IMG/VR virus record: IMGVR_UViG_3300010885_006641
Coordinates: 1-52,426 of that record
Reading direction: 5' to 3' (one strand)
DNA from: a virus
DNA length: 52,426 nt
A program made the translations under genes and the position numbers. A model generated the notes under the pieces. It worked only from the letters and a program-made list of their open reading frames with translations, had not been told where the DNA came from and searched no databases. Positions 2,525-52,426 of this stretch are shown here, one piece after another. Position 1 is the first letter of the stretch. Each line of letters begins with the position of its first letter.

Positions 2525-3120
2525 TGCCTAGTAAATCAGCTAAACAACACCGATTCATGGAAGCAATCGCCCATAACAAGGAGTTTGCTAAGAAGGCAGG
2601 TGTATCTCAGTCAGTAGGTAAGGACTTTTCTGAGGCCGATAAAGGTAAGAAGTTTGCTGCAGGTGGTATAACCCGGGGCGGCAAGGGTATGATCAACCGT
2701 CAAGAAACACGATGGGGTAGCATCATGGGTGCATCTAAAGGTGCTCCAGATGTTAATTTAAACAAATTTGAAGGTAAAAAGGAAGGTGGAATAATTATGA
2801 AAGCGAAAGAATCTATGGGTCCTCGTGACATGAAGGAAGATGTGGAGAAAGGTTCCAACAAGAAGTCTTCTCACGGCGAATCTGCAGTGCAGAAGAAAGG
2901 CCACACCAAGGGTAAAAACTTTGGTGACTCTGGTAAAGAGGTCGGCATTGAAAAGATGAAGTGCGGCGGTGCAGCTAAGGTCAAGAAGATGTCCTCTGGC
3001 GGTATGGCTCGTGGCGAACATCCTGTACAAACTAAAGGCCGTACTAAAGGTACTCAAGTGTCTATGCCCGGTGCAGCTATGATGGGCGGCATGGGTATGA
3101 AACGTGGCGGTAAGTGCTAA
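2524..3120 (+). CDS. Lysine/glycine-rich small virion-associated protein
   Basis: This 198-residue protein starts with MPSKSAKQHRFMEAIAHN, a start seen in many phage proteins of unknown role. The rest is low-complexity and basic, with repeated GG motifs: FAAGGIT (residues 44-50), a Lys-Glu-Gly-Gly-Ile segment, SSGGMARGE and a C-terminal KRGGKC. A segment with QKKGHTKGKNFG is partly repeated as QTKGRTKGTQVS, suggesting internal duplication. Likely disordered. It belongs to a cluster of such proteins among the head and neck genes; a role in DNA condensation or head assembly is inference. Confidence 0.7.
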   Translation: MPSKSAKQHRFMEAIAHNKEFAKKAGVSQSVGKDFSEADKGKKFAAGGITRGGKGMINRQETRWGSIMGASKGAPDVNLNKFEGKKEGGIIMKAKESMGPRDMKEDVEKGSNKKSSHGESAVQKKGHTKGKNFGDSGKEVGIEKMKCGGAAKVKKMSSGGMARGEHPVQTKGRTKGTQVSMPGAAMMGGMGMKRGGKC

Positions 3121-3130
3121 GGAGATAGTA

Positions 3131-3538
3131 ATGGCTGACGAAAGCGGGGTATCAAAGCTGAAAAAAACCCAAGGAAAGTGGGGTAAAAATACTATTGGGA
3201 TGCCTTATGATTACTCTACTGATAACTATGACCTATTAACTGCGGCTCAAACTACTGGACTAGCTAATGGTAAGGGTGTTAATACGCCAGCGTTTGATTA
3301 TGCGCTAAGAAAAAGTGCTGGTCGAGATACTACCCCTGAAATGGATAGAGGGGCAAAACAAGTAGACCAAGAAGCAAGAGAATTAGCTAATCAAAATATC
3401 CGAGAAAGCAGGGCAAGATCATTTAAAAAGGGAGGGGAAATTAAACATCATTCTGAGCATTACAAAGAGCATGCTGCAGGGCATAAACTGCATCATGATC
3501 ATGTAAAAGCGATGTGCATGGGCGGTAAAACAAAATGA
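3131..3538 (+). CDS. Hypothetical basic protein, head/neck cluster
   Basis: The gene starts at ATG 3131, with AAGGAG at 3119-3124 seven nt upstream; an upstream in-frame start at 3104 would overlap the previous gene and lacks a site. The 135-residue product is hydrophilic, helical and basic, with FKKGGEIKHH and a His-rich stretch (HHSEHYKEHAAGHKLHHDH) near the C-terminus, ending CMGGKTK. Eight or more His in about 30 residues could bind metal. The stop codon TGA overlaps the ATG of the next gene as ATGA. I do not recognise a family. Confidence 0.7.
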   Translation: MADESGVSKLKKTQGKWGKNTIGMPYDYSTDNYDLLTAAQTTGLANGKGVNTPAFDYALRKSAGRDTTPEMDRGAKQVDQEARELANQNIRESRARSFKKGGEIKHHSEHYKEHAAGHKLHHDHVKAMCMGGKTK

Positions 3539-3672
3539 GAGCAAGTCGTGGAATGGGGGATATAAACCCATCCAAAATGCCTACGGGGAAGCGAAAGCCC
3601 CGTAGGGATAATACCGACTTTACTAAATATGCTAAAGGTGGCAAGACCACTACTAAAAGGAAATCCAAATGA
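3535..3672 (+). CDS. Very small basic protein (45 aa)
   Basis: The product begins MRASRGMGDINPSKMPTGKR and ends with YAKGGKTTTKRKSK. The gene is linked to both neighbours by ATGA overlaps (start overlaps the TGA at 3536-3538; its TGA at 3670-3672 overlaps the ATG at 3669). The start pattern MR-xSRGMG-xI-x-PSKMP-xGKR resembles small proteins found at the same place in other environmental phages, which supports it as real. About a third of residues are Lys or Arg. Function unknown; it carries the same Lys-Gly-Gly motif as its neighbours. Confidence 0.75.
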   Translation: MRASRGMGDINPSKMPTGKRKPRRDNTDFTKYAKGGKTTTKRKSK

Positions 3673-4115
3673 ACTTATTTGAACTCGTAGAAAAAGAATC
3701 TGAGATGTTGATTAAAGAGCTTAAAGCCCGTTGCGAACAGTTATATAACGCATTTGGGGCTAATTCACATGCGCATATAGACCCCGTTATTGATAGCCTA
3801 GAAGCCCATGTTGCCGCAAAGACCCCCAATACTAACCCTGATGCGGCTGCTCCTACTGTCGCTTCTATGGTAGAGGCTGCCCTTGCTCCTGTGGTTGATA
3901 CTCCTACCCCCCCTGCTCCTGTGGTTGATACTCCTATCGCTCCTGCTCCTGTGGTTGATACTCCTATCGCTCCTGCTCCTGTGGTTGATACTCCTATCGC
4001 TCCTGCTCCTGTGGTAGAATCTACCCCTGTAGTTGAGGCTGCTCCTGCGCTTGTTAATGAGCCTGTCCCTGCTATCACTGCATCTGAAACCGTAGCACCT
4101 GCACAGGCTAGCTAA
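3669..4115 (+). CDS. Coiled-coil protein with Pro/Ala-rich repeat tail
   Basis: The 148-residue protein has a helical N-terminus (residues 1-50, heptad-like with Leu/Ile: ELVEKESEMLIKELKARCEQ) and a Pro/Ala/Val-rich tail built from four copies of a 10-residue unit APAPVVDTPI. The tail is acidic, in contrast to the basic neighbours. The N-terminal helix could oligomerise, with the tail acting as an extended linker, but no family is recognised. The start overlaps the previous stop as ATGA. The repeat is a clean 30-bp DNA repeat, so its length is likely to vary between relatives. Confidence 0.7.
   Translation: MNLFELVEKESEMLIKELKARCEQLYNAFGANSHAHIDPVIDSLEAHVAAKTPNTNPDAAAPTVASMVEAALAPVVDTPTPPAPVVDTPIAPAPVVDTPIAPAPVVDTPIAPAPVVESTPVVEAAPALVNEPVPAITASETVAPAQAS
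3881..4020 (+). repeat. 30-bp in-frame tandem repeat, about 4.7 copies
   Basis: Copies start at 3881, 3911, 3941, 3971 and 4001 (the last partial). Copies 3 and 4 are identical. Each codes ten residues (APAPVVDTPI). No spacers, so not CRISPR. Confidence 0.95.
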
Positions 4116-8354: not shown

Positions 8355-10162
8355 TGGCATATATTGGGCAAATACCAAACGTTAGCACTATACAAGATAG
8401 TAACGGGAATAATGTAACTACTCTTGCTAATACTGGCACGCAAACAGGTCTAGCGACTTCTATAGTTGCTACAGATTTTGAAGTATCTACGGGTAACACA
8501 ACATCCGCACAGCTTAACCCCAACGCGACATTTAACGGGGCGATAGAGAATATTTACTATTACCAGAGTATCTCTATTCTAATATCTAATGATCAAAGTG
8601 GTACATTGATCATCAATCAATATATTGACGCCGCAGGAACACAAAAGACAACCTCATGGGTGTACACCCTCACTGCGGGTCAAGGGTTTAATAGATCGTT
8701 TTCCGGTAACGGTAATTATTTTAATTTATCGTTTACTAATACTGGTACCACTGCTACTACAGCATTAGCGATTCATACTGCATATGGGGTTATTCCGGTT
8801 TCCACTAGCCTTGGAAACACAGCTACAGCAATCAATGAGATTAATGGGGCACCCCTTTCATTAGGCCAGACCGCATCTGCAAACAGTATTCCTGTTGTAT
8901 TAGCTTCGGATCAATCCCCACTTCAGGTCACAGTTTCTAACCCAGTCAATACAGTAACAGTTGCTAACCCCGTTACGTCTGTGGGTATCACTGGCCCTGT
9001 TACGGTTGCTAACCCCGTTACGTCTGTGGGTATCACTGGCCCTGTTACGGTTGCTAACCCAGTCAATACTGTTGCGGTTTCTAATACAAACTTATCGGTT
9101 ACGGATTCCATACTTGCTGCCGCTCAATCTACGGATAACCCGATCAAAGTATCAATTACTGGTGATGAATCAGGTGACTTCGCCGGGGTTAATATTCTTG
9201 AGCAAGTTGTATCGGACGGAACAGGCATTGCGTTTAACACTCGCACATTAAATGCACCAAAGGTTGACGTTAATAACGCACAGATACCTTCTGATGCTCC
9301 CCCTAGTGCAACTCTTTACTTGGGCGTGAACGTCCCTCAGATGATTGATACTACTGGGTATCAGTCGGTTGTATTCCAGCAGTCGGCTGCAGTTGCAATT
9401 ACGGTTACACAATCAAATGACGGTGTGAACTTTACAGCGGTTCTGGGCATCCAGATGACAGCTACTGCTACCGCATATGCTAGTGCTACCGCAGCTACTG
9501 CATCGGCTGTCTACGCGTTCCCTGTTGCTGCACGCTACATGCGTTTCCAAGCGGCTACTGCGACATCACTTATTGTCTACTTACGCCAAACACCATTCGC
9601 AAGCTATGCTTCATTTGGGTTACCTTCAGTAGTTATTTCAAGTGGTACAGTCACCGCCAATACGCAGGGCGGTACAGCGGTAGGTGCTGCCCCAGCTACA
9701 AACCCTAACTTAGTTGCAGGTACAGACTATAACGGTTTAGTTCGCCGTATCCAGACGGATACAAACGGTAACTCGCAGGTGGTGGGTCAGCTACCACAAG
9801 GCTATCAGGTCGGTGCGTATAACGTTACCTATTCAGGGCATACCTCTTCGATCAACCCAATCACTGCTACACTATCAACAGTTAACCCCGTTATGATGGG
9901 TGGGGTTGACCAAGCCAACACTGCGAGAAGAATTCAGACTGATCCATTTGGAGCGCCACTTGTTAAAGGAGTGCCAAGCTCACCTGCCCAACAGTCTATT
10001 GAAGAATTATTGACTCAAATTTTAGGAACTCTTCGCGTGCTGACACACTACACATACGAAGGGCAACTGAGAGATGGCTTCCGTTCTTCCGCTGACGAGC
10101 CTGATAGTATGTTAGCGGATTATCTCAACCCAGCTTCAACTTTTAGCAATATGACCAATTAG
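8354..10162 (+). CDS. Tail fibre/receptor-contact virion protein with tandem repeats
   Basis: The 602-residue protein starts MAYIGQIPN, a start typical of fibre-like proteins in environmental phages. The first 190 residues form beta-rich domains. Residues about 196-245 hold the tandem repeat unit NPVTSVGITGPVTVA, a collagen-free beta repeat. The middle (residues 300-410) resembles a discoidin/jelly-roll-like module (YQSVVFQQSAAVAITVTQSN), and the C-terminus (residues 540-585) is helical (IEELLTQILGTLRVLTHYTY), which could trimerise. No enzymatic motif is seen. The protein is probably part of the baseplate-less podoviral fibre set. Confidence 0.65.
   Translation: MAYIGQIPNVSTIQDSNGNNVTTLANTGTQTGLATSIVATDFEVSTGNTTSAQLNPNATFNGAIENIYYYQSISILISNDQSGTLIINQYIDAAGTQKTTSWVYTLTAGQGFNRSFSGNGNYFNLSFTNTGTTATTALAIHTAYGVIPVSTSLGNTATAINEINGAPLSLGQTASANSIPVVLASDQSPLQVTVSNPVNTVTVANPVTSVGITGPVTVANPVTSVGITGPVTVANPVNTVAVSNTNLSVTDSILAAAQSTDNPIKVSITGDESGDFAGVNILEQVVSDGTGIAFNTRTLNAPKVDVNNAQIPSDAPPSATLYLGVNVPQMIDTTGYQSVVFQQSAAVAITVTQSNDGVNFTAVLGIQMTATATAYASATAATASAVYAFPVAARYMRFQAATATSLIVYLRQTPFASYASFGLPSVVISSGTVTANTQGGTAVGAAPATNPNLVAGTDYNGLVRRIQTDTNGNSQVVGQLPQGYQVGAYNVTYSGHTSSINPITATLSTVNPVMMGGVDQANTARRIQTDPFGAPLVKGVPSSPAQQSIEELLTQILGTLRVLTHYTYEGQLRDGFRSSADEPDSMLADYLNPASTFSNMTN
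8960..9049 (+). repeat. Two identical 45-bp tandem repeats
   Basis: Copies at 8960-9004 and 9005-9049 are identical and in frame (15 residues, 'VANPVTSVGITGPVT'); degenerate partial units flank both sides. Suggests recent duplication. Confidence 0.95.
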
Positions 10163-30910: not shown

Positions 30911-33900
30911 ATGGCATCATTAACACCAGAACAACTTAACGAATTGTTCGGTGGCCCCGAGGCTAAAACTGCGCCTAACTCAAAGGACATGTTTGACGCA
31001 AGGGACTTATCCACATGGAACTTACTAAAAGGTGGTGCCCACCGTAGTATTGAAGGTCTGAAAGGCACCGCGTTGGAATTACTTCCCGCATTAGGTGCGT
31101 CCCTAATAGGCAAAGATAAAACTGCTAAGGAATTTTTAGACAGTTACGCAGAACGTACTAAAGCTGCAGAAGAAGCTAACCCTACCGCATATAAGTCCTA
31201 TAAAGATGTTATGGGGCCGAATGGTAGCGTAATCGATTATGCTGCTGAGCTACTTGGTGAGACAGGCCCAGACATTGCCTCGTTCATGATGGGAACAGGT
31301 ATCGGTAGTATGGCGGGCAAAAAGATCGCTAGTACCGCCGCGAAGAAAGCTATCGAAGGGCACATTGAAGAACAAGTAGCAAAATCCGCAGTGGCTAAGG
31401 GGCTAACTGAAGCAGAAACAACTGCGCTAAAAGACCGCATGACCCAGCGTGCCACAGATGGGTGGTTGATGCAGCATGCTGCAAATCACGGTGCAGAGAT
31501 TGGTTCTAAGGCGGGACTGTTTGGCACTGCGATGGGTATGAGCGTGCCTGATACATTGAATTCGGTTTACCAAGATACAGGTAACATCAGCCCTGTTGCT
31601 GCACTGACAGTAGGTTCGATCAACGGTATCTTGAACACATACCTACCTGCAGAAATCGGTGAGTCACTTGGGGTAGCAGGTAAGAACTTATTATCGCTTA
31701 AGTTACTTGAGAAGTCTGAAGTCGTACCTACAACGTGGAAGCGTGAAGTCGGTAAGCAGATCCTGAAAGATACTGCGATGATGGGGGTAACCTCCGGTGC
31801 GCAAGCTGCACTGAATAAGGTTGCGGATAAGATTGCGGGTAGTGATGATCCAGTATTCTCACAACATAATATTGATGGGATACTCGAAGCCACAATTAAA
31901 GGGGCTACTACGGGTGCGTTGATTGGTGCGCCGCTTGGTATGGCCTCAGCGGGCAGTAAAGTTAGAGAACGTCAGGCAGCGGTAGATGCACAGAAAGCCG
32001 CGGAAACAAAACAAATTCCACCTTCACCACCCGCAGTACCACCTGAAGCCGCCCCTGTAGAACCTGTCACACCGCCCCCTCCACCACCTCCTGTAGCGGA
32101 GTCACAAGTTAAATTACCAGAAGCTACTGCTCCTGAACCTGTATCAGTGCAAGCATCGACCCCTGCGCCTAGTACTATCTTGTCTAGAGAGGAATTAAAA
32201 GGTATTGGGTTAACACCTAACTTCGCTATGCACTCCCGTATACGGGATTTAGACATGGCTAATGCAGATCATGTTTCAAAAGTAGACGCAGAACTTGCGA
32301 ATACAAAAGCTACAAAACGTTGGCCTGAAGAACTTAAGACTAATCTACAAGACTTAATTGCCCAAAAGAAAGCTGCGGTGCAAGGAGCCGAAGATGGACA
32401 CGTACGAGATGTACTTGACAATGCACCAACTGGAGAAAGCGTTCCAGTTTCTAGCAAGCCCGAGCAACACGGAAGTGCCGAAAGAATTGGAACACCTGAA
32501 GCAGGAAGAATGGAGCCATCTGCAGAACCTACTGCTGAGCTTGGAAGAAGAAAAGCAGATGAGTCTCCTGCATTAGAACAACCAAAAGTAGAACCTCCTA
32601 CGCAGCCTACTCTGGAACCCGCCCCATTAAAACAACCTACTATAGAATCTTCTACGCAGCCTGAAAAAGCGCCCACTCCTGAAGTTGCTAAAGAGCCTAT
32701 GGTTGAGCCTACTCCCGCTGAGAAAGCCCCCACTGAAGAAGCCCCTGCTAAGTCTACACGTATGATGACCGAAGAAGAAAAGGTTGATGCGTCTTTAGAT
32801 AGTTGGGAGAAAGCCCAGTACGCAAAACGCGCTGCGCAGTTAAAAGCTGAAGAAGCCCAAGCTGCGATGAATGAGGGTAAGCCTGTAGAAGAAGCACCTG
32901 CTGCACCTAAGACCACTGCTGAAGAAGCAGAACAAGCATGGAACATGAACAAGCCGGAAGGTGCACCAAGCTATAAACGCTTATCTCCCGATCTACAAGA
33001 TGCGTGGCATGAAGCACATGTTGAAGGCAATGCTAGTAAAGACATGGCAGAACAGATTGTTGATGCGCATAAAGCTGAAGGACGTAAAGGGGTATTGAAG
33101 AGCGGTGCGGAACCCGGATCAGGTACAGTCGATAAAGACCAAGCAGCTATGCTGGTTAATAACTTAAGTAAACAGTTCCCTAACTTAAATATTAAAACCG
33201 TACATTCTATCGATGAACTTCCCTCACATATGCAGCGATGGCTCAAAGAGTCAGATGCGGAAGACGCACGGGGCTTCTTAACCAATGACGGTAAGACCGC
33301 ATATATTATTACTGGTAACCACAACTCTTTACAGGGTGTGCGTAATACAGTGTTCCATGAGGCTCTAGGACATTATGGGCTACGTAAGTTATTCCGCAAT
33401 GATCTCGATTCAAAACTAGAAGAGATATACAACAGCAACCGTAATATCAAAGCCCTTGCGGATAAATGGTTGGCAGATAACCCGAATACCTATAAAGGTT
33501 CAGACCGTATTGCACGTGGAGCGGAAGAAGCCCTTGCGGAAGCATCTGAAAATAATACGCCTAAGATGAGTGCGTATGAACAACTTAAGAACATTGTGCG
33601 TAAGTACTTACGCAAGATGGGGCTTGTAAACAAGTACTCTGATAATGATGTCAAAGGTATCCTTCGGGATATGCACGAGAAAGCAAGAAGCGAAGGTGGG
33701 GACGTAGCTGAAACATCTTCCATGGTAACTAAATCTGGTAAAGGTAAAGAGCCGCTAAACAAAGATGTAGATGAGTTCCGGCTTACCGCACCGTCAAATA
33801 TCGCTAAGCTACCCCCGTCAGTACGAGGCATCGCTAGTGCAGTACAAAGCGCATTCTTTAATTTGAAGAGTACTAGACTTGGGTTAATGCTCACTGAAGA

Positions 33901-36604
33901 TGTAGCTGAGCTTGCACGTAAGTACATGCCCTCTGTTGCTGACTATGTTCGGTTGAATCAAGATAAGCACGCGACCATCCGTGCCTTTGAAGAGAACATT
34001 CGTAAGATCGTGCCACAGTTCGAGCAGCTATCTAAAGGTCTGCAAGAATCGGTTAACAAGTTTATCGGTGAGTCTACATTCCAAGGTAAGTGGGGCTATG
34101 ATCCGGGTGGAATCGAAGGGGTTAAAGTTGATCCAGAATTTAAGGCCCGGTTCGACAACATGCCACCTAAAGCGCAAGCGGTTATTCGGGCTGTGTTTGA
34201 TCATGGGGTTAAGTCCCTAGAAGAAAAAAAGTCCGCGGTTAAAGAGCATATTGATTACCTCTACGCAGATGAACTAAAAAACGCTAGTGAGCATGACCGC
34301 GAGAATATTATTAAGCGCAAGAAGGCTGAGCTAGAAAAGTTTAGTAGCTTGCTGAATATTAAGAGCAATGACCCCTATGCACCATTAAAACGTTTTGGTG
34401 AGTTTATTGTTGTAGGTAAATCAAAAGAGTACTACGAAGCTGAGAAAAATCACGATTGGAGTGAAGTGAGCCGTTTGCGTAAAGATGGTAACCACTATGT
34501 TATTGAATTTGCTCAGACTATGGGTGAGGCTCAGGGGATCAAAGACGATCTTGCTAAGCTAGGCAAGTTCATGATCGAGGATCCTTTTAAACGTTCTGAA
34601 GCGCGGGATAAGTTGTATGGCGGTACAGAACTGCATACCGCCTTTGCTAAGTTTAGACGATTCCTTAGTGAGAACCGTGCGGAAGAATCCATAGACGAGA
34701 ACAGGAAGAACATGCTCAACCAGATGGATAGTCTGGTGCAGGACTTGTATCTCACTTCACTTGCGGAATCTAGTGCTCGTAAATCTGAATTCACCCGTCA
34801 GAAGATTGCGGGTTACAACCAAGATATGATGCGTGCGTTCTTCACGCAAGGTATGGCTGACGCACGGTTTATCGCTAACCTCAAGCACAACTCCGGTATT
34901 TTTGAGTCTATTAGCCGTATGCAGGAAGAAGCTAAAGATGGGCATGTAAATGGAGACGGGGTTCGCACACCGGGTAATCGTGCTGAGTCTTACCCATACT
35001 TGAATGAGTTATTAGCACGTGAAGCGCAGACTATGCAGATTCGTACTCCGAGTTTCTTAGATAGTGCTAACCGTATGGTAGGTGATTGGTTCCTAACCTT
35101 CAGCCCATCGTTCTACTTGCAGCAAGCAACGCAGACCTATGCGTTCTCCCTACCTTGGATGGGGGCTAGATTCGGCTACTTTAAATCCAACGGCGAACTC
35201 ATGCGTTCATATGGGGAGATTGCTTCTTTGCTGAAGAAGTCTAAGATTGGGGACACTATCGATCTAGATAACTTACCTAAGAGCATTACTAAAGGTGAGC
35301 GTGCCATGCTTGACCATATGGTTAAGACAGGGCTTCTAGATATCGGGATCGAATCGACTCTGCATAACTTCAGAACCGATAAAGGGGTATCAGCTACCTA
35401 CACCAAAACAACTGATACGTTGCGCGGTGCTATCAACAAGATCGAAGTACTAAACCGTGCGACTACTGCACTGGCTACATATCGCTTATCCCTAGAACGC
35501 AACAAGGGTAACGAGGCACTTGCAACTAAAGATGCCTACGATGGTGTACGTACTACGCATGGTTCCTATGACGGCTTCAATACACCCCGGCTATTTAATA
35601 GCGGCCCAGTGGCACGGAGTGTTACACAATTCCGTAGGTTCCAGATCATTCAGTTAACCATGTTGGCAAAGCAACTACATAATGCGTTTAAGGGCGAGAC
35701 CCCTGAGATGCGTGCGATAGGTCGTAAAGAAGCTATGTTCTTGATAGGGCACTGTATGGCACTCGGTGGTGCTAAAGGGTTACCGTTCTGGGCGCTTGCT
35801 TCTACTGCCTATAGCATAATCAATAGTGTGTTTGGTGATGACGATACTAAGCTTATGGACCTCGAAGCATTCATGCGTGACAAGCTTAAAGATACTGGTC
35901 TTGAGTTAATGCTAACCAAAGGTATGCCCGCAGCGCTAGGCTATGATGCGTCATCTAAGCTAGGTATGGGTAACGTAACATCTATCTCCCCCTTTGCTGA
36001 AACAGACCTAACATCTAAGTCTGGATATGAGAAAGCTGCAATCGCTCTTGCGGGTCCATTCGCGGGCGGTATGCTACCTAATATGGCTGATGGTGTTGGG
36101 ATGTTAGCTCAAGGAGATTACTACAAAGGTCTTGAGAAGTTCATGCCTTCCGGTGCAGCTAACGCAATGAAAGCTTATCGATTTAGCACGGATGGTATCA
36201 CGAACAAGAATGGTGATATGGTGATGTCTCCTGAAGATATATCTTTCACTGAGACCATGATGCAAGCAGTGGGGTTACCCCCGACTAAGTTCAGTGAACG
36301 TACCTATCGTGCGGGTGAGATGTATAAGGCTGAGCAGTACTTTACCAATACGGAAAAAAACATCATTCACAACTTTGTGCGGGCTGCAAAAGAAAACGAT
36401 ATGGATAGTATGTCTAATGCACGCCAAGAGTTTCTGCAGTTGCAGAACGTACGCGCAGCAAATGGACTTCCAAGGCAAAACATGAGTGTACTGCACAAGG
36501 GTGTTGAAGCTCAGAAGAAACGTGAGCATAGCGTGGTCGGTGGGGTTGAAACTAATAAACAAAACGCTAGGTTTGCACGGGGGCTAACAGAAAGATCGGA
36601 ATAA
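30911..36604 (+). CDS. Giant internal virion polyvalent protein with zincin motif
   Basis: 1897 residues, the largest gene here. Residues 100-200 hold an Ala/Gly-rich amphipathic segment (DIASFMMGTGIGSMAGKKIA); 360-440 are Pro-rich; 500-680 are Glu/Pro/Ala-rich low complexity. A metallopeptidase-like element follows: VFHEALGHYGLR, with His816, Glu817 and His821 (HExxxH), and AEEALAEASE at about 871-880 as a possible third ligand. After this come long helices; residues about 1550-1640 (GPVARSVTQFRRFQIIQLTM and LIGHCMALGGAKGLPFWALA) contain hydrophobic segments resembling the LPD-type large polyvalent domains of phage-injected proteins. By analogy with T7 gp16 it is probably ejected with the DNA. 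Peptidase activity is unproven. Confidence 0.75.
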   Translation: MASLTPEQLNELFGGPEAKTAPNSKDMFDARDLSTWNLLKGGAHRSIEGLKGTALELLPALGASLIGKDKTAKEFLDSYAERTKAAEEANPTAYKSYKDVMGPNGSVIDYAAELLGETGPDIASFMMGTGIGSMAGKKIASTAAKKAIEGHIEEQVAKSAVAKGLTEAETTALKDRMTQRATDGWLMQHAANHGAEIGSKAGLFGTAMGMSVPDTLNSVYQDTGNISPVAALTVGSINGILNTYLPAEIGESLGVAGKNLLSLKLLEKSEVVPTTWKREVGKQILKDTAMMGVTSGAQAALNKVADKIAGSDDPVFSQHNIDGILEATIKGATTGALIGAPLGMASAGSKVRERQAAVDAQKAAETKQIPPSPPAVPPEAAPVEPVTPPPPPPPVAESQVKLPEATAPEPVSVQASTPAPSTILSREELKGIGLTPNFAMHSRIRDLDMANADHVSKVDAELANTKATKRWPEELKTNLQDLIAQKKAAVQGAEDGHVRDVLDNAPTGESVPVSSKPEQHGSAERIGTPEAGRMEPSAEPTAELGRRKADESPALEQPKVEPPTQPTLEPAPLKQPTIESSTQPEKAPTPEVAKEPMVEPTPAEKAPTEEAPAKSTRMMTEEEKVDASLDSWEKAQYAKRAAQLKAEEAQAAMNEGKPVEEAPAAPKTTAEEAEQAWNMNKPEGAPSYKRLSPDLQDAWHEAHVEGNASKDMAEQIVDAHKAEGRKGVLKSGAEPGSGTVDKDQAAMLVNNLSKQFPNLNIKTVHSIDELPSHMQRWLKESDAEDARGFLTNDGKTAYIITGNHNSLQGVRNTVFHEALGHYGLRKLFRNDLDSKLEEIYNSNRNIKALADKWLADNPNTYKGSDRIARGAEEALAEASENNTPKMSAYEQLKNIVRKYLRKMGLVNKYSDNDVKGILRDMHEKARSEGGDVAETSSMVTKSGKGKEPLNKDVDEFRLTAPSNIAKLPPSVRGIASAVQSAFFNLKSTRLGLMLTEDVAELARKYMPSVADYVRLNQDKHATIRAFEENIRKIVPQFEQLSKGLQESVNKFIGESTFQGKWGYDPGGIEGVKVDPEFKARFDNMPPKAQAVIRAVFDHGVKSLEEKKSAVKEHIDYLYADELKNASEHDRENIIKRKKAELEKFSSLLNIKSNDPYAPLKRFGEFIVVGKSKEYYEAEKNHDWSEVSRLRKDGNHYVIEFAQTMGEAQGIKDDLAKLGKFMIEDPFKRSEARDKLYGGTELHTAFAKFRRFLSENRAEESIDENRKNMLNQMDSLVQDLYLTSLAESSARKSEFTRQKIAGYNQDMMRAFFTQGMADARFIANLKHNSGIFESISRMQEEAKDGHVNGDGVRTPGNRAESYPYLNELLAREAQTMQIRTPSFLDSANRMVGDWFLTFSPSFYLQQATQTYAFSLPWMGARFGYFKSNGELMRSYGEIASLLKKSKIGDTIDLDNLPKSITKGERAMLDHMVKTGLLDIGIESTLHNFRTDKGVSATYTKTTDTLRGAINKIEVLNRATTALATYRLSLERNKGNEALATKDAYDGVRTTHGSYDGFNTPRLFNSGPVARSVTQFRRFQIIQLTMLAKQLHNAFKGETPEMRAIGRKEAMFLIGHCMALGGAKGLPFWALASTAYSIINSVFGDDDTKLMDLEAFMRDKLKDTGLELMLTKGMPAALGYDASSKLGMGNVTSISPFAETDLTSKSGYEKAAIALAGPFAGGMLPNMADGVGMLAQGDYYKGLEKFMPSGAANAMKAYRFSTDGITNKNGDMVMSPEDISFTETMMQAVGLPPTKFSERTYRAGEMYKAEQYFTNTEKNIIHNFVRAAKENDMDSMSNARQEFLQLQNVRAANGLPRQNMSVLHKGVEAQKKREHSVVGGVETNKQNARFARGLTERSE

Positions 36605-50323: not shown

Positions 50324-50499
50324 ATCTTTATCTCCTTTTGTTTAATGTTTACGGTATAGCCTAGTTCTTTAATAACCTTTAACGCGTCATACGTTAACGT
50401 CTTAGTGCCGCATAAATAAGCAAACCTAGCTGCCTTCTCACATGCGGGATAAAACATAGGATTTCCATATACTTCCTTCAATAAAACTTCGATTTCCAT
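50320..50499 (-). CDS. Small hypothetical protein (59 aa)
   Basis: The product begins MEIEVLLKEVYGNPMFYPAC and is helical with a Tyr/Cys centre and basic C-terminus (KELGYTVNIKQKEIKI). AGGAG (spacing 8) precedes ATG 50499, and its TGA overlaps the next ATG (ATGA), so it is coupled to the 326-residue gene. No domain recognised. Confidence 0.75.
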   Translation of the reverse strand: MEIEVLLKEVYGNPMFYPACEKAARFAYLCGTKTLTYDALKVIKELGYTVNIKQKEIKI

Positions 50500-50516
50500 T
50501 TGTGTATCTCCTAGAA

Positions 50517-50534
50517 TCCAAACAGGTGTTTGGA
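50517..50534 (-). terminator. Short hairpin after the VWA gene, possible attenuator
   Basis: TCCAAAC (50517-50523), loop AGGT, GTTTGGA (50528-50534). On the - strand it lies 1-2 nt after the VWA stop codon and is followed by TTCT. A weak terminator or mRNA processing site. Confidence 0.5.
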
Positions 50535-50535
50535 A

Positions 50536-51699
50536 TTAAATGTAAATAGCTGTACCTACGGTGGGATGCGCGGTCTTGTTACCCTTGATGCACCACAATA
50601 CAGGGCAAGGCCATACACCCCATGAGCTACCTAAATAGCCATCGGTCAATACCACAATACATTCGGGCTTAATACCGTGCTCGTTCATATACATCGGGAC
50701 ACATCTAACATCTGTGCCGCCACCACCTTCAGGTTTAGTACTACGTGCTAAGTTGTTAATAGCATCTTCTACATATACCTCGGCCCGGCATACTAACGTA
50801 TCCCAATACAGCACACGAACTTTACGTGGGTTAATTTGTTCGCAGATACCTGTTACTTCGCTCAAGAATGATCCGATAAACGCATCACTGATAGAGCCTG
50901 ACGTATCAATCGCAATCACGATCTCGTCTACCGTCTCACTGATACTGCTAGGCATTAACATATCCATACCTACATATCTACGATTCGGTTTACGCCACGT
51001 ACTAAAGTCTTTACCCGCACATGTAGTTGTTACGAAGTCACGAAGTAACTCGCGCCAATCACGTTGGGTCTGTGCTAACTCTGTGATGTCACGCAGTCCA
51101 CCCGAACCTACCTTACCCGCTAAGACCATGCCTTGACGTACCGCCTCGTCGATCTCACGTGCTAACTCTTCTACTTCATCGGTAGATAACTCTGCTGCAC
51201 CTTCCCAATCGTGATCGTCCATGCCACCACCACCTGCACCGTTCTGTGGGTCTCCGGTTAACAAGTTGAATACCTGCTGCGCGTCCATACCTTTATACTG
51301 CTCATCGATCAGTCCGCACTTAGGCATAGAGATAAACCCAGACTCACATGCTTTAGTATCAACAAGTTTAAGGTTGATCACATAGTCACATGCTTTGTTA
51401 GCGCGGTCATGATCTTCCTCGTGCAGGTGCTTCCACGTGCTTAAGTGTCTATACATCTTGTGGTAATTCTCGTGCAAGATTAAGAAGCGGAACTCTGCAT
51501 CGCTCAGGCTATCCACGAACTCGCGACCGTATATCTCATCACGCCCTTTAGTACACGCAGTGGGGCAGTCTTCTACTATCTCTTTCTTGCCGATCATCAA
51601 TACACCCGACAATGCTACAAACTCATCATGCCCGATGATGTCGGTCATTGCTTTATGTAACCGCTGGGCCGCGGTAAGTTGTTTACCAATACTTAACAT
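50536..51699 (-). CDS. VWA-domain protein with N-terminal metallopeptidase motif (MoxR partner)
   Basis: 387 residues. An N-terminal zincin-like domain contains HENYHKMYRH (HExxH, His76-His80) and HEEDHDRANKACDYVINLKL (about 93-112), the DUF2201-type layout. A Gly-rich linker (about 153-160) leads to a VWA-like domain at about 258-385 with a complete metal-ion-dependent adhesion site: DTSGS (Asp265, Ser267, Ser269), Thr329 in GGGGTD and Asp353 in LTDGY. Such proteins work with MoxR-type AAA+ ATPases as chaperone or maturation systems; the upstream gene is such an ATPase. AAGGAG (spacing 6) before ATG 51699. Protease activity is unproven. Confidence 0.9.
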   Translation of the reverse strand: MLSIGKQLTAAQRLHKAMTDIIGHDEFVALSGVLMIGKKEIVEDCPTACTKGRDEIYGREFVDSLSDAEFRFLILHENYHKMYRHLSTWKHLHEEDHDRANKACDYVINLKLVDTKACESGFISMPKCGLIDEQYKGMDAQQVFNLLTGDPQNGAGGGGMDDHDWEGAAELSTDEVEELAREIDEAVRQGMVLAGKVGSGGLRDITELAQTQRDWRELLRDFVTTTCAGKDFSTWRKPNRRYVGMDMLMPSSISETVDEIVIAIDTSGSISDAFIGSFLSEVTGICEQINPRKVRVLYWDTLVCRAEVYVEDAINNLARSTKPEGGGGTDVRCVPMYMNEHGIKPECIVVLTDGYLGSSWGVWPCPVLWCIKGNKTAHPTVGTAIYI

Positions 51700-51745
51700 G
51701 TTATCTCCTTGGGTTCCTAGTACTGTGTTTTAATTAACTGTGGTA

Positions 51746-52426
51746 TTACTTCTTGTCCGCGCTGAACATATAGTTGTTAGCCATGCACCATTCGGTAAAC
51801 TTCTTACTGGTCATGACGATTGACTGCTTGCTGTACTTGGGGTTACGTACCTGCATAGCAAACAAACCCTGTGCTTCTTTATCGAGTCGGTTTAGGTATG
51901 TCATCCATGGATCAGCAAACTCACGGCTCATTGTTGCCAGTGCACGGTAGACCACCATCACCACACCCGATGCTGTTTCGGGAACCTTAGCTGTCTCAGG
52001 GCTACTCTTAATATCTTCTTGGCGTGGTAAGTCATCGACCAAGCGAACATATGCGCCTAAGTCACTACCCGCACGGTCACCGATTGTTCCGATCAAAGCA
52101 GAGCGTAGTGCACCATCACTGATCTTATCTTTAGCCCACAACCAATGCGAGGCTAGCTCTAACGATCTCGGTGTAACAAACGCAGGGCGTTGTGCCTGTG
52201 GATGATAGATGTATGGATTACCACCTGTCTCATCGTCTGGATGATCGACTTCCTCGAATGACTGGAATAACTGATCACCATTCTCTTTAACCCACAAGAT
52301 CATTGCAGGATGAATCCCTGCGTTCAGTGCAAACCCCTCAATCCAATCGGTTGCGCTCGGCTTCTTCATACGTACTACTGTGATACGGTTGCGATGGTGT
52401 GGCAGTAACAGATCGCCTACACCCTC
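51746..52426 (-). CDS. MoxR-like AAA+ ATPase, C-terminal part (truncated by window end)
   Basis: The frame is open from the window edge (GDLLLPHHRNRITVVRMKKP precedes the in-frame Met at 52369), so this is the C-terminal 226 residues of a longer protein. The visible part (WIEGFALNAGIHPAMILWVK, then a beta/helix segment with RPAFVTPRSLELASHW and a helical lid) fits the C-terminal lid domain of MoxR-type AAA+ ATPases that are paired with VWA proteins in phages. The Walker A and B motifs would lie outside the window. The 46-nt gap to the VWA gene holds AAGGAG. Calling ATG 52369 as the start would be wrong if the ATPase continues, which I think is likely. Confidence 0.7.
   Translation of the reverse strand, partial: EGVGDLLLPHHRNRITVVRMKKPSATDWIEGFALNAGIHPAMILWVKENGDQLFQSFEEVDHPDDETGGNPYIYHPQAQRPAFVTPRSLELASHWLWAKDKISDGALRSALIGTIGDRAGSDLGAYVRLVDDLPRQEDIKSSPETAKVPETASGVVMVVYRALATMSREFADPWMTYLNRLDKEAQGLFAMQVRNPKYSKQSIVMTSKKFTEWCMANNYMFSADKK

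Follow-up and report, generated by a model that had tools for sequence, protein, structure and literature searches.

A probable MoxR-class ATPase and HExxH-VWA gene pair in a viral contig and a DUF3150-like gene linked to it in phages and conjugative plasmids

In phage N4, gp24 (AAA) and gp25 (vWFA) belong to the core genes of the N4-like phages, or Schitoviridae, and have been listed without a function (PMC4193335, PMC7650795, PMC2784036); both are middle transcripts (PMC4193335). The two genes lie next to each other in the middle-gene region and encode an AAA+ ATPase and a DUF2201-type VWA protein in which HExxH and MIDAS are kept. In group 2.2 jumbo phages, a MoxR protein paired with a metallopeptidase-vWA protein was reported by Iyer et al. 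(2021), who proposed that the pair acts in virion assembly and cited the MoxR-vWA system of a two-tailed archaeal virus (PMC7824862). As described in that passage of the paper, the domain architecture is the one analysed here, with an N-terminal metallopeptidase; the passage does not mention a third gene. The ATPase/VWA pair is thus already known and no new discovery, but the literature that we searched yielded no function for it, and the passages of papers that name DUF2201 apparently do not address its function.

Better understood relatives act in metabolism. To our knowledge, the VWA proteins NorD and CbbO have unrelated N-terminal domains and no HExxH zincin. NorQ/NorD and CbbQ/CbbO likewise combine a MoxR-class ATPase fold with a VWA partner that has a MIDAS, but their clients are known metabolic ones, unlike the pair here. 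In NorQD, a single VWA protein sits on a MoxR hexamer, its MIDAS binds carboxylates on the client surface, ATP hydrolysis drives remodelling and the N-terminal domain confers specificity (PMC9976466). MoxR-vWA ternary conflict systems are three-part as well, sometimes with peptidase domains (Kaur et al. 2020, PMC7159879). Their third component is VMAP or another protein, not a DUF3150-like one, and they occur mostly in multicellular bacteria.

Here, we analysed a viral contig of 52,426 nucleotides (IMGVR_UViG_3300010885_006641; "the window" below), which carries such a pair at its right end. The virus belongs to a lineage other than N4, and the fragment has no gene of the size of the N4 vRNAP. 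The pair is ≈ 25% identical to that of N4, which lacks the third gene described below. The phage is also much smaller than the group 2.2 jumbo phages.

The VWA protein and its ATPase partner

The VWA gene (50536–51699, minus strand) encodes an N4 gp25-like protein of 387 aa that belongs to PHROG 1314. Its start is the ATG at 51699, with a ribosome-binding site, AAGGAG, five bases 5' of it (51705–51710, minus strand). According to Pfam, DUF2201_N, a putative metallopeptidase (zincin-like) domain, spans residues 11–247 (E = 3.1e-20) and the DUF2201 VWA-like domain residues 260–383 (E = 1.3e-15). PF13203 and PF09967 follow each other in this order with 73.3 and 58.1 bits, against gathering scores of 23.2 and 26.4.

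PHROG 1314 and many RefSeq records label this protein an HNH endonuclease. That reading has annotation alone in its favour, whereas DUF2201_N and DUF2201 cover the protein and a Pfam search up to E = 1 returned no HNH match in it; we give it practically no credence. The same mislabel of the DUF2201 metallopeptidase-VWA family was seen in NC_055784, NC_023581 and NC_048704 as well as in PHROG 1314. In Shigella phage pSb-1 (L155), the annotation divides the metallopeptidase domain and the VWA domain between two genes, gp66 and gp67 (2902–3363 and 3419–4033).

The first-pass annotation had assigned an HExxH motif and a full MIDAS to this protein. Both were located exactly, on the minus strand: the HExxH codons (H76-E77-x-x-H80) at 51460–51474, D265-x-S267-x-S269 of the MIDAS at 50893–50907, T329 at 50713–50715 and D353 (in TDG) at 50641–50643. 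We aligned 74 sequences, including the query, to which the other members were 39–81% identical. Of the 387 columns, 32 were invariant, and these included H76, E77, H80, D265, S267, S269 and D353, that is, seven of the eight residues named beforehand (hypergeometric P ≈ 1e-7). The eighth, T329, was T in 73 sequences and S in one. An origin of the motifs by chance is ruled out by this invariance. H85, D105 and N109 were likewise invariant. D105 and N109 are part of an A-x-D-x-x-x-N motif (D105xxxN109 codons at 51373–51387, minus strand). Gluzincins have an ExxxD motif, and by analogy D105xxxN109, on the following helix, probably provides the third metal ligand, along with a candidate partner residue.

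A second alignment contained 16 other sequences, namely 12 annotated phages (including N4 gp25 and the jumbo phages GAP32 and PA5oct) and four viral contigs. The HExxH and MIDAS residues were retained in 15 of the 16, the exception being the rV5 record, which reads HGVGH. Position 85 was H in most sequences and D in RHEph24 and JA-1. The rV5 gene (L059, NC_011041; 5086–6411) also has a frameshift in the VWA domain; in BP9 (L154; 586–2046) the motif is HEVGH and the gene is intact.

The structure model of the VWA protein had a pLDDT of 75.5 and a pTM of 0.52. Structural comparison of the model revealed a clear VWA fold at residues 254–387 (Z = 12.5). HExxH lies on a helix formed by residues 67–82 and D105/N109 on another, formed by residues 97–113, and a stretch of low confidence links the N-terminal and VWA domains. 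VWA folds filled the list of structural matches, with no solved zincin among the matches listed. The first-pass annotation had suggested that a lack of spatial clustering of the HExxH and MIDAS residues would count against the pair. That yardstick is unsound, because the two sites sit in separate domains.

Upstream of the VWA gene and in the same direction lies the second gene, whose stop is separated from the VWA start by 46 bases. The reading frame (51746–52426, minus strand) is still open at the contig end, so its 5' end is cut off and 226 C-terminal residues remain. This N4 gp24-like fragment matches PHROG 1297 ("ATPase") with E = 3.7e-24, which bears out its earlier designation as the C-terminus of a probable AAA+ ATPase. 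It begins just before the likely arginine finger. Only two of the catalytic positions are therefore visible in the window: the equivalents of R159 of the relative L002, a putative arginine finger (52385–52387, minus strand), and of L002 R232, a putative sensor 2 arginine in TPRS (52166–52168, minus strand).

The Walker motifs, which fall outside the window, are present in full-length relatives. These are 350–374 aa long. The L002 protein, which aligns collinearly with the window fragment, has GHMGTGKS as Walker A and ILMIDE as Walker B; the fragment is ≈ 80% identical to other full-length relatives. Among 51 ATPases, the P-loop residues G33, G36, G38 and K39, the pair D104/E105, sensor-1 N142 and sensor-2 R232/S233 were invariant, and R159, the likely arginine finger, was R in 49.

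To which class the ATPase belongs was addressed by profile and structure comparison. Midasin was the top PDB profile match (E = 5.4e-13). For the AlphaFold2 model (pLDDT 88.8, pTM 0.82), the top structural matches were cso-CbbQ (Z = 13.8) and NorQ in its complex with the VWA domain of NorD (Z = 13.6); ClpB and dynein scored within ≈ 1–1.5 Z units of these. Strands 69–73 and 83–87 lie between core strands 54–59 and 99–104, as expected for a helix-2 insert, a correspondence read from strand order and not from superposition. Of the profile matches anticipated by the first-pass annotation, PF13203 and PF09967 were clear, whereas AAA_5 was marginal: L002 barely exceeded the cut-off (22.3 versus 22) and L007 and L041 remained below it. 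Together these comparisons support, without proving, that the ATPase belongs to the MoxR class, near midasin, CbbQ and NorQ. The VWA partners of these three ATPases bind a client.

Pairing and genome neighbourhood

The ATPase gene accompanied the VWA gene in 126 of 139 VWA loci, some of which are re-fetches of the same contig. Eleven of the 13 remaining loci are cut within 735 bases upstream of the VWA gene. The other two are PVPSE1, where the opposite strand has an annotated MoxR ATPase at the border of the fetched region, and L050, a contig-end fragment from a Planctomycetaceae bin. Strict adjacency is not universal: KB57 and rV5, both vequintaviruses, have the two genes on opposite strands, ≈ 3.6–4 kb apart, and in phage G they are separated by ≈ 4.4 kb. 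Protein families, invariant motifs, fold comparison and this nearly universal adjacency all support the original observation of a MoxR-class ATPase with a VWA-zincin partner. The observation is confirmed. The interpretation attached to it is partly supported, namely in its identification of the pair; remodelling of host machinery, counter-defence and assembly of a phage complex were offered as alternative functions and are weighed below. The whole genome of KPP25, a sister lineage with a DNA polymerase 37% identical to that of this virus, contains neither gene, and the machine is therefore dispensable in KPP25.

In the window, the pair shares its strand with genes for a family A DNA polymerase, an exonuclease, a SNF2 helicase and a primase/helicase, and the structural proteins are encoded on the opposite, plus strand. 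The pair had been placed at the head of the early operon. Longer relatives (61–65 kb) put it near the head and not at it, since a gene of ≈ 295 aa and several small ORFs precede the ATPase gene. Beyond these small ORFs lie divergent genes of ≈ 515–563 and 803–833 aa, which by their size may encode terminase and portal, respectively. Downstream of the pair, genes of ≈ 304 and ≈ 326 aa matched no family in PHROG and Pfam searches, and we treat them as ordinary synteny. Apart from the ≈ 295 aa gene, conserved neighbours of the phage pair were not found in the plasmid or distant-phage loci.

Other features were noted in passing. A stretch of ≈ 210 bases of the window (50324–50535), flanked by the VWA gene and the 326 aa gene, holds no called gene; relatives have a gene of ≈ 300 aa at this place, which is apparently missing here. 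The C-terminal third of a protein of 1897 aa (30911–36604) has matches to giant phage proteins, among them DarB-like antirestriction proteins, and a homing-endonuclease-like gene (PHROG 314) lies near the contig start (357–1118). At another locus (L180, G009:C1:20940-23600), a DNA polymerase contains an intein-like in-frame insertion of ≈ 275 aa within a single frame of 931 aa; Pfam recognised no intein domain in the insertion.

A DUF3150-like gene accompanies the pair in relatives

The ≈ 295 aa gene turned out to be a regular companion of the pair. By profile search, a homologue was present at 88 of ≈ 110 distinct loci holding both the ATPase and the VWA gene (counts are approximate, since a few loci overlap). 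It lay upstream of the ATPase gene in 72 cases, downstream of the VWA gene in 12 and between the two in four. Of the 22 pair loci that lack a homologue, seven are short contigs that extend little or not at all beyond the ATPase gene on its upstream side. In the window itself the gene is not visible because the contig ends at 52,426, and its expected position falls outside. The loci with the gene in between include cyanophage Pag-Yong1 and Burkholderia and Cupriavidus plasmids (E = 4e-48 to 6e-42 in the first pass of the search).

Linkage has exceptions. The third gene was not found in N4, GAP32, phage G, RHph_TM3_14A or Synechocystis pSYSA, though the pair is present in all of them, and Tunturi_3, which has the DUF3150-like gene and no DUF2201 VWA gene, is a counter-example to strict linkage. 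An upstream gene of 343 aa in L041 was not recovered by a profile built without it and was left out of the counts.

Two lines of sequence comparison relate the third protein to DUF3150. The best members scored 24.8–25.3 bits against PF11348 (DUF3150), whose gathering score is 24.9, and profile-profile comparison with true DUF3150 proteins gave a probability of 94.5% (E = 7.5e-8; control, 0.2%). In phage MinM2 the gene is annotated as DUF3150. We therefore call the third protein of the relatives DUF3150-like. The literature that we searched contained no paper naming DUF3150; within these sources, neither the third component nor its plasmid parallel seems to have been described before.

The plasmid parallel is as follows. 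The third gene occurs in 42 plasmid records, mostly from Burkholderiaceae genera that also hold the VWA gene; plasmid copies came up in the first pass of the search at E = 3e-44 and 6e-42. In the plasmid records compared by the coordinates of shared records, it adjoins the VWA gene. Both HExxH and MIDAS are conserved in the VWA proteins of the plasmids. On the conjugative plasmid pBMC401 the genes lie beside type IV secretion genes.

These findings bear on the proposal that the pair is a virion assembly machine, which would remodel and proteolytically mature structural proteins. Besides the suggestion made for the group 2.2 jumbo phages in the passage by Iyer et al. (PMC7824862), this proposal can draw on the PA5oct ATPase, which is flagged ESI-MS/MS, a label that PA5oct also gives to structural proteins, and on a proteome paper on a Staphylococcus jumbo phage in which a MoxR-like ATPase is discussed (PMC10638138). 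However, conjugative plasmids, which have no virions, carry the same three genes, N4 gp24 and gp25 are transcribed with the middle genes (PMC4193335), and here the VWA gene is encoded on the strand of the replication genes and not on that of the structural genes. This location, and the occurrence of near relatives of the pair together with the third gene on conjugative plasmids, weaken the case for assembly of a virion complex. Our data do not support the virion role put forward in that passage for the present pair, and we regard it as unlikely. Plasmid occurrence disfavours virion assembly as the common role; a role specific to phages could still differ. The three-gene pattern argues instead for an intracellular remodelling or processing machine of mobile elements and not for one confined to virions.

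To learn which genes accompany true DUF3150 proteins, we read seven loci from Pseudomonadota genomes. An HExxH gene adjoined DUF3150 in five of them (L173–L176 and L179, of which L173 and L174 are alike by gene sizes). All four of the HExxH neighbours that were scanned proved to be VWA proteins with DxSxS, and they matched CobT or CobT_C, the latter below cut-off in one. An AAA_5/CbbQ_C-type or Walker-A gene of 321–367 aa lay upstream in four of the seven loci, and Pfam confirmed AAA_5/CbbQ_C in all three such genes scanned. The same three component classes are thus assembled, including a VWA protein with an N-terminal HExxH. That protein is CobT-like and not DUF2201, and profile comparison of the HExxH domains was weak (27%). 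Two divergent HExxH-VWA families, CobT-like and DUF2201, thus occur with the same kinds of partner. In L173, a RadC-like JAB gene (9272–9769) lies next to the CobT-like VWA/DUF3150/AAA_5 cluster, which suggests an integrative element.

The CobT-like neighbours and AAA_5/CbbQ_C ATPases of true DUF3150, together with the structural proximity of our ATPase to NorQ and CbbQ, could be taken to mean that the pair inserts a metal or cofactor, like CobST, NorQD or CoxDE, and so activates a phage or host metalloenzyme. Yet neither a large subunit of cobalt chelatase nor any other obvious metalloenzyme client was seen beside the pair, and insertion needs no HExxH protease-like domain. We find this quite improbable.

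Alternatively, the zincin domain might cut a host or defence protein brought to it by the MIDAS and the DUF3150-like adaptor, in the service of host takeover or counter-defence. The invariant HExxH, the distribution over mobile elements (phages and plasmids, with a RadC neighbour in one chromosomal DUF3150 locus) and the lack of the pair in KPP25 are all compatible with such a protease. On the other hand, the near-universal retention of the pair in the Schitoviridae core (PMC7650795) is unlike that of most counter-defence genes. Moreover, no PADLOC model matched the VWA protein, which speaks against membership in a defence system, and the ATPase matches were marginal (best, 5e-4) and confined to the P-loop region. 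We consider a dedicated takeover or counter-defence protease doubtful.

A proposed three-component machine

On balance, we think it somewhat more likely than not that the pair is an AAA+ remodelling machine that would act within infected cells, during the early or middle phase of infection, on a client common to phages and plasmids, with the DUF3150-like protein as a third subunit in relatives. The ATPase would form a ring of the MoxR/CbbQ/NorQ type, and, if NorQD is a guide, a single VWA protein would dock on it. The MIDAS may then grip a carboxylate or a short peptide of the client, and the zincin-like N-terminal domain would hold the client or, more likely, cut it as the ring works. Cutting is the simplest extra step, because this domain keeps an intact HExxH. 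The DUF3150-like protein, as the putative third subunit in the relatives of this virus, could be an adaptor or the client itself. The same three genes stand side by side on conjugative plasmids, so the client is probably common to phages and plasmids, perhaps a complex for replication or transcription or a defence factor of the host, rather than a part of the virion.

A broader formulation, which we advance tentatively and hold at a little short of even, is that a MoxR-class ATPase, an HExxH-VWA protein and a DUF3150-like protein constitute a three-component machine that occurs in tailed phages, on conjugative plasmids and at chromosomal loci, the last of which are probably integrative elements. 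The VWA protein would be drawn from either of two divergent families, DUF2201 or CobT-like, and the task would be one common to incoming mobile DNA.

Several hundred sequenced phages carry the VWA gene, the pair is among the core genes of Schitoviridae, and a widespread "HNH endonuclease" label can now be corrected. We consider the linked DUF3150-like gene the most valuable finding. Its association with the pair and the joint presence of the three genes on conjugative plasmids reduce the range of functions to be considered and disfavour a role in the virion only. As a candidate adaptor or client, the DUF3150-like protein turns an old unexplained pair into a three-part system that can be tested, both in phage N4 and in plasmid conjugation.
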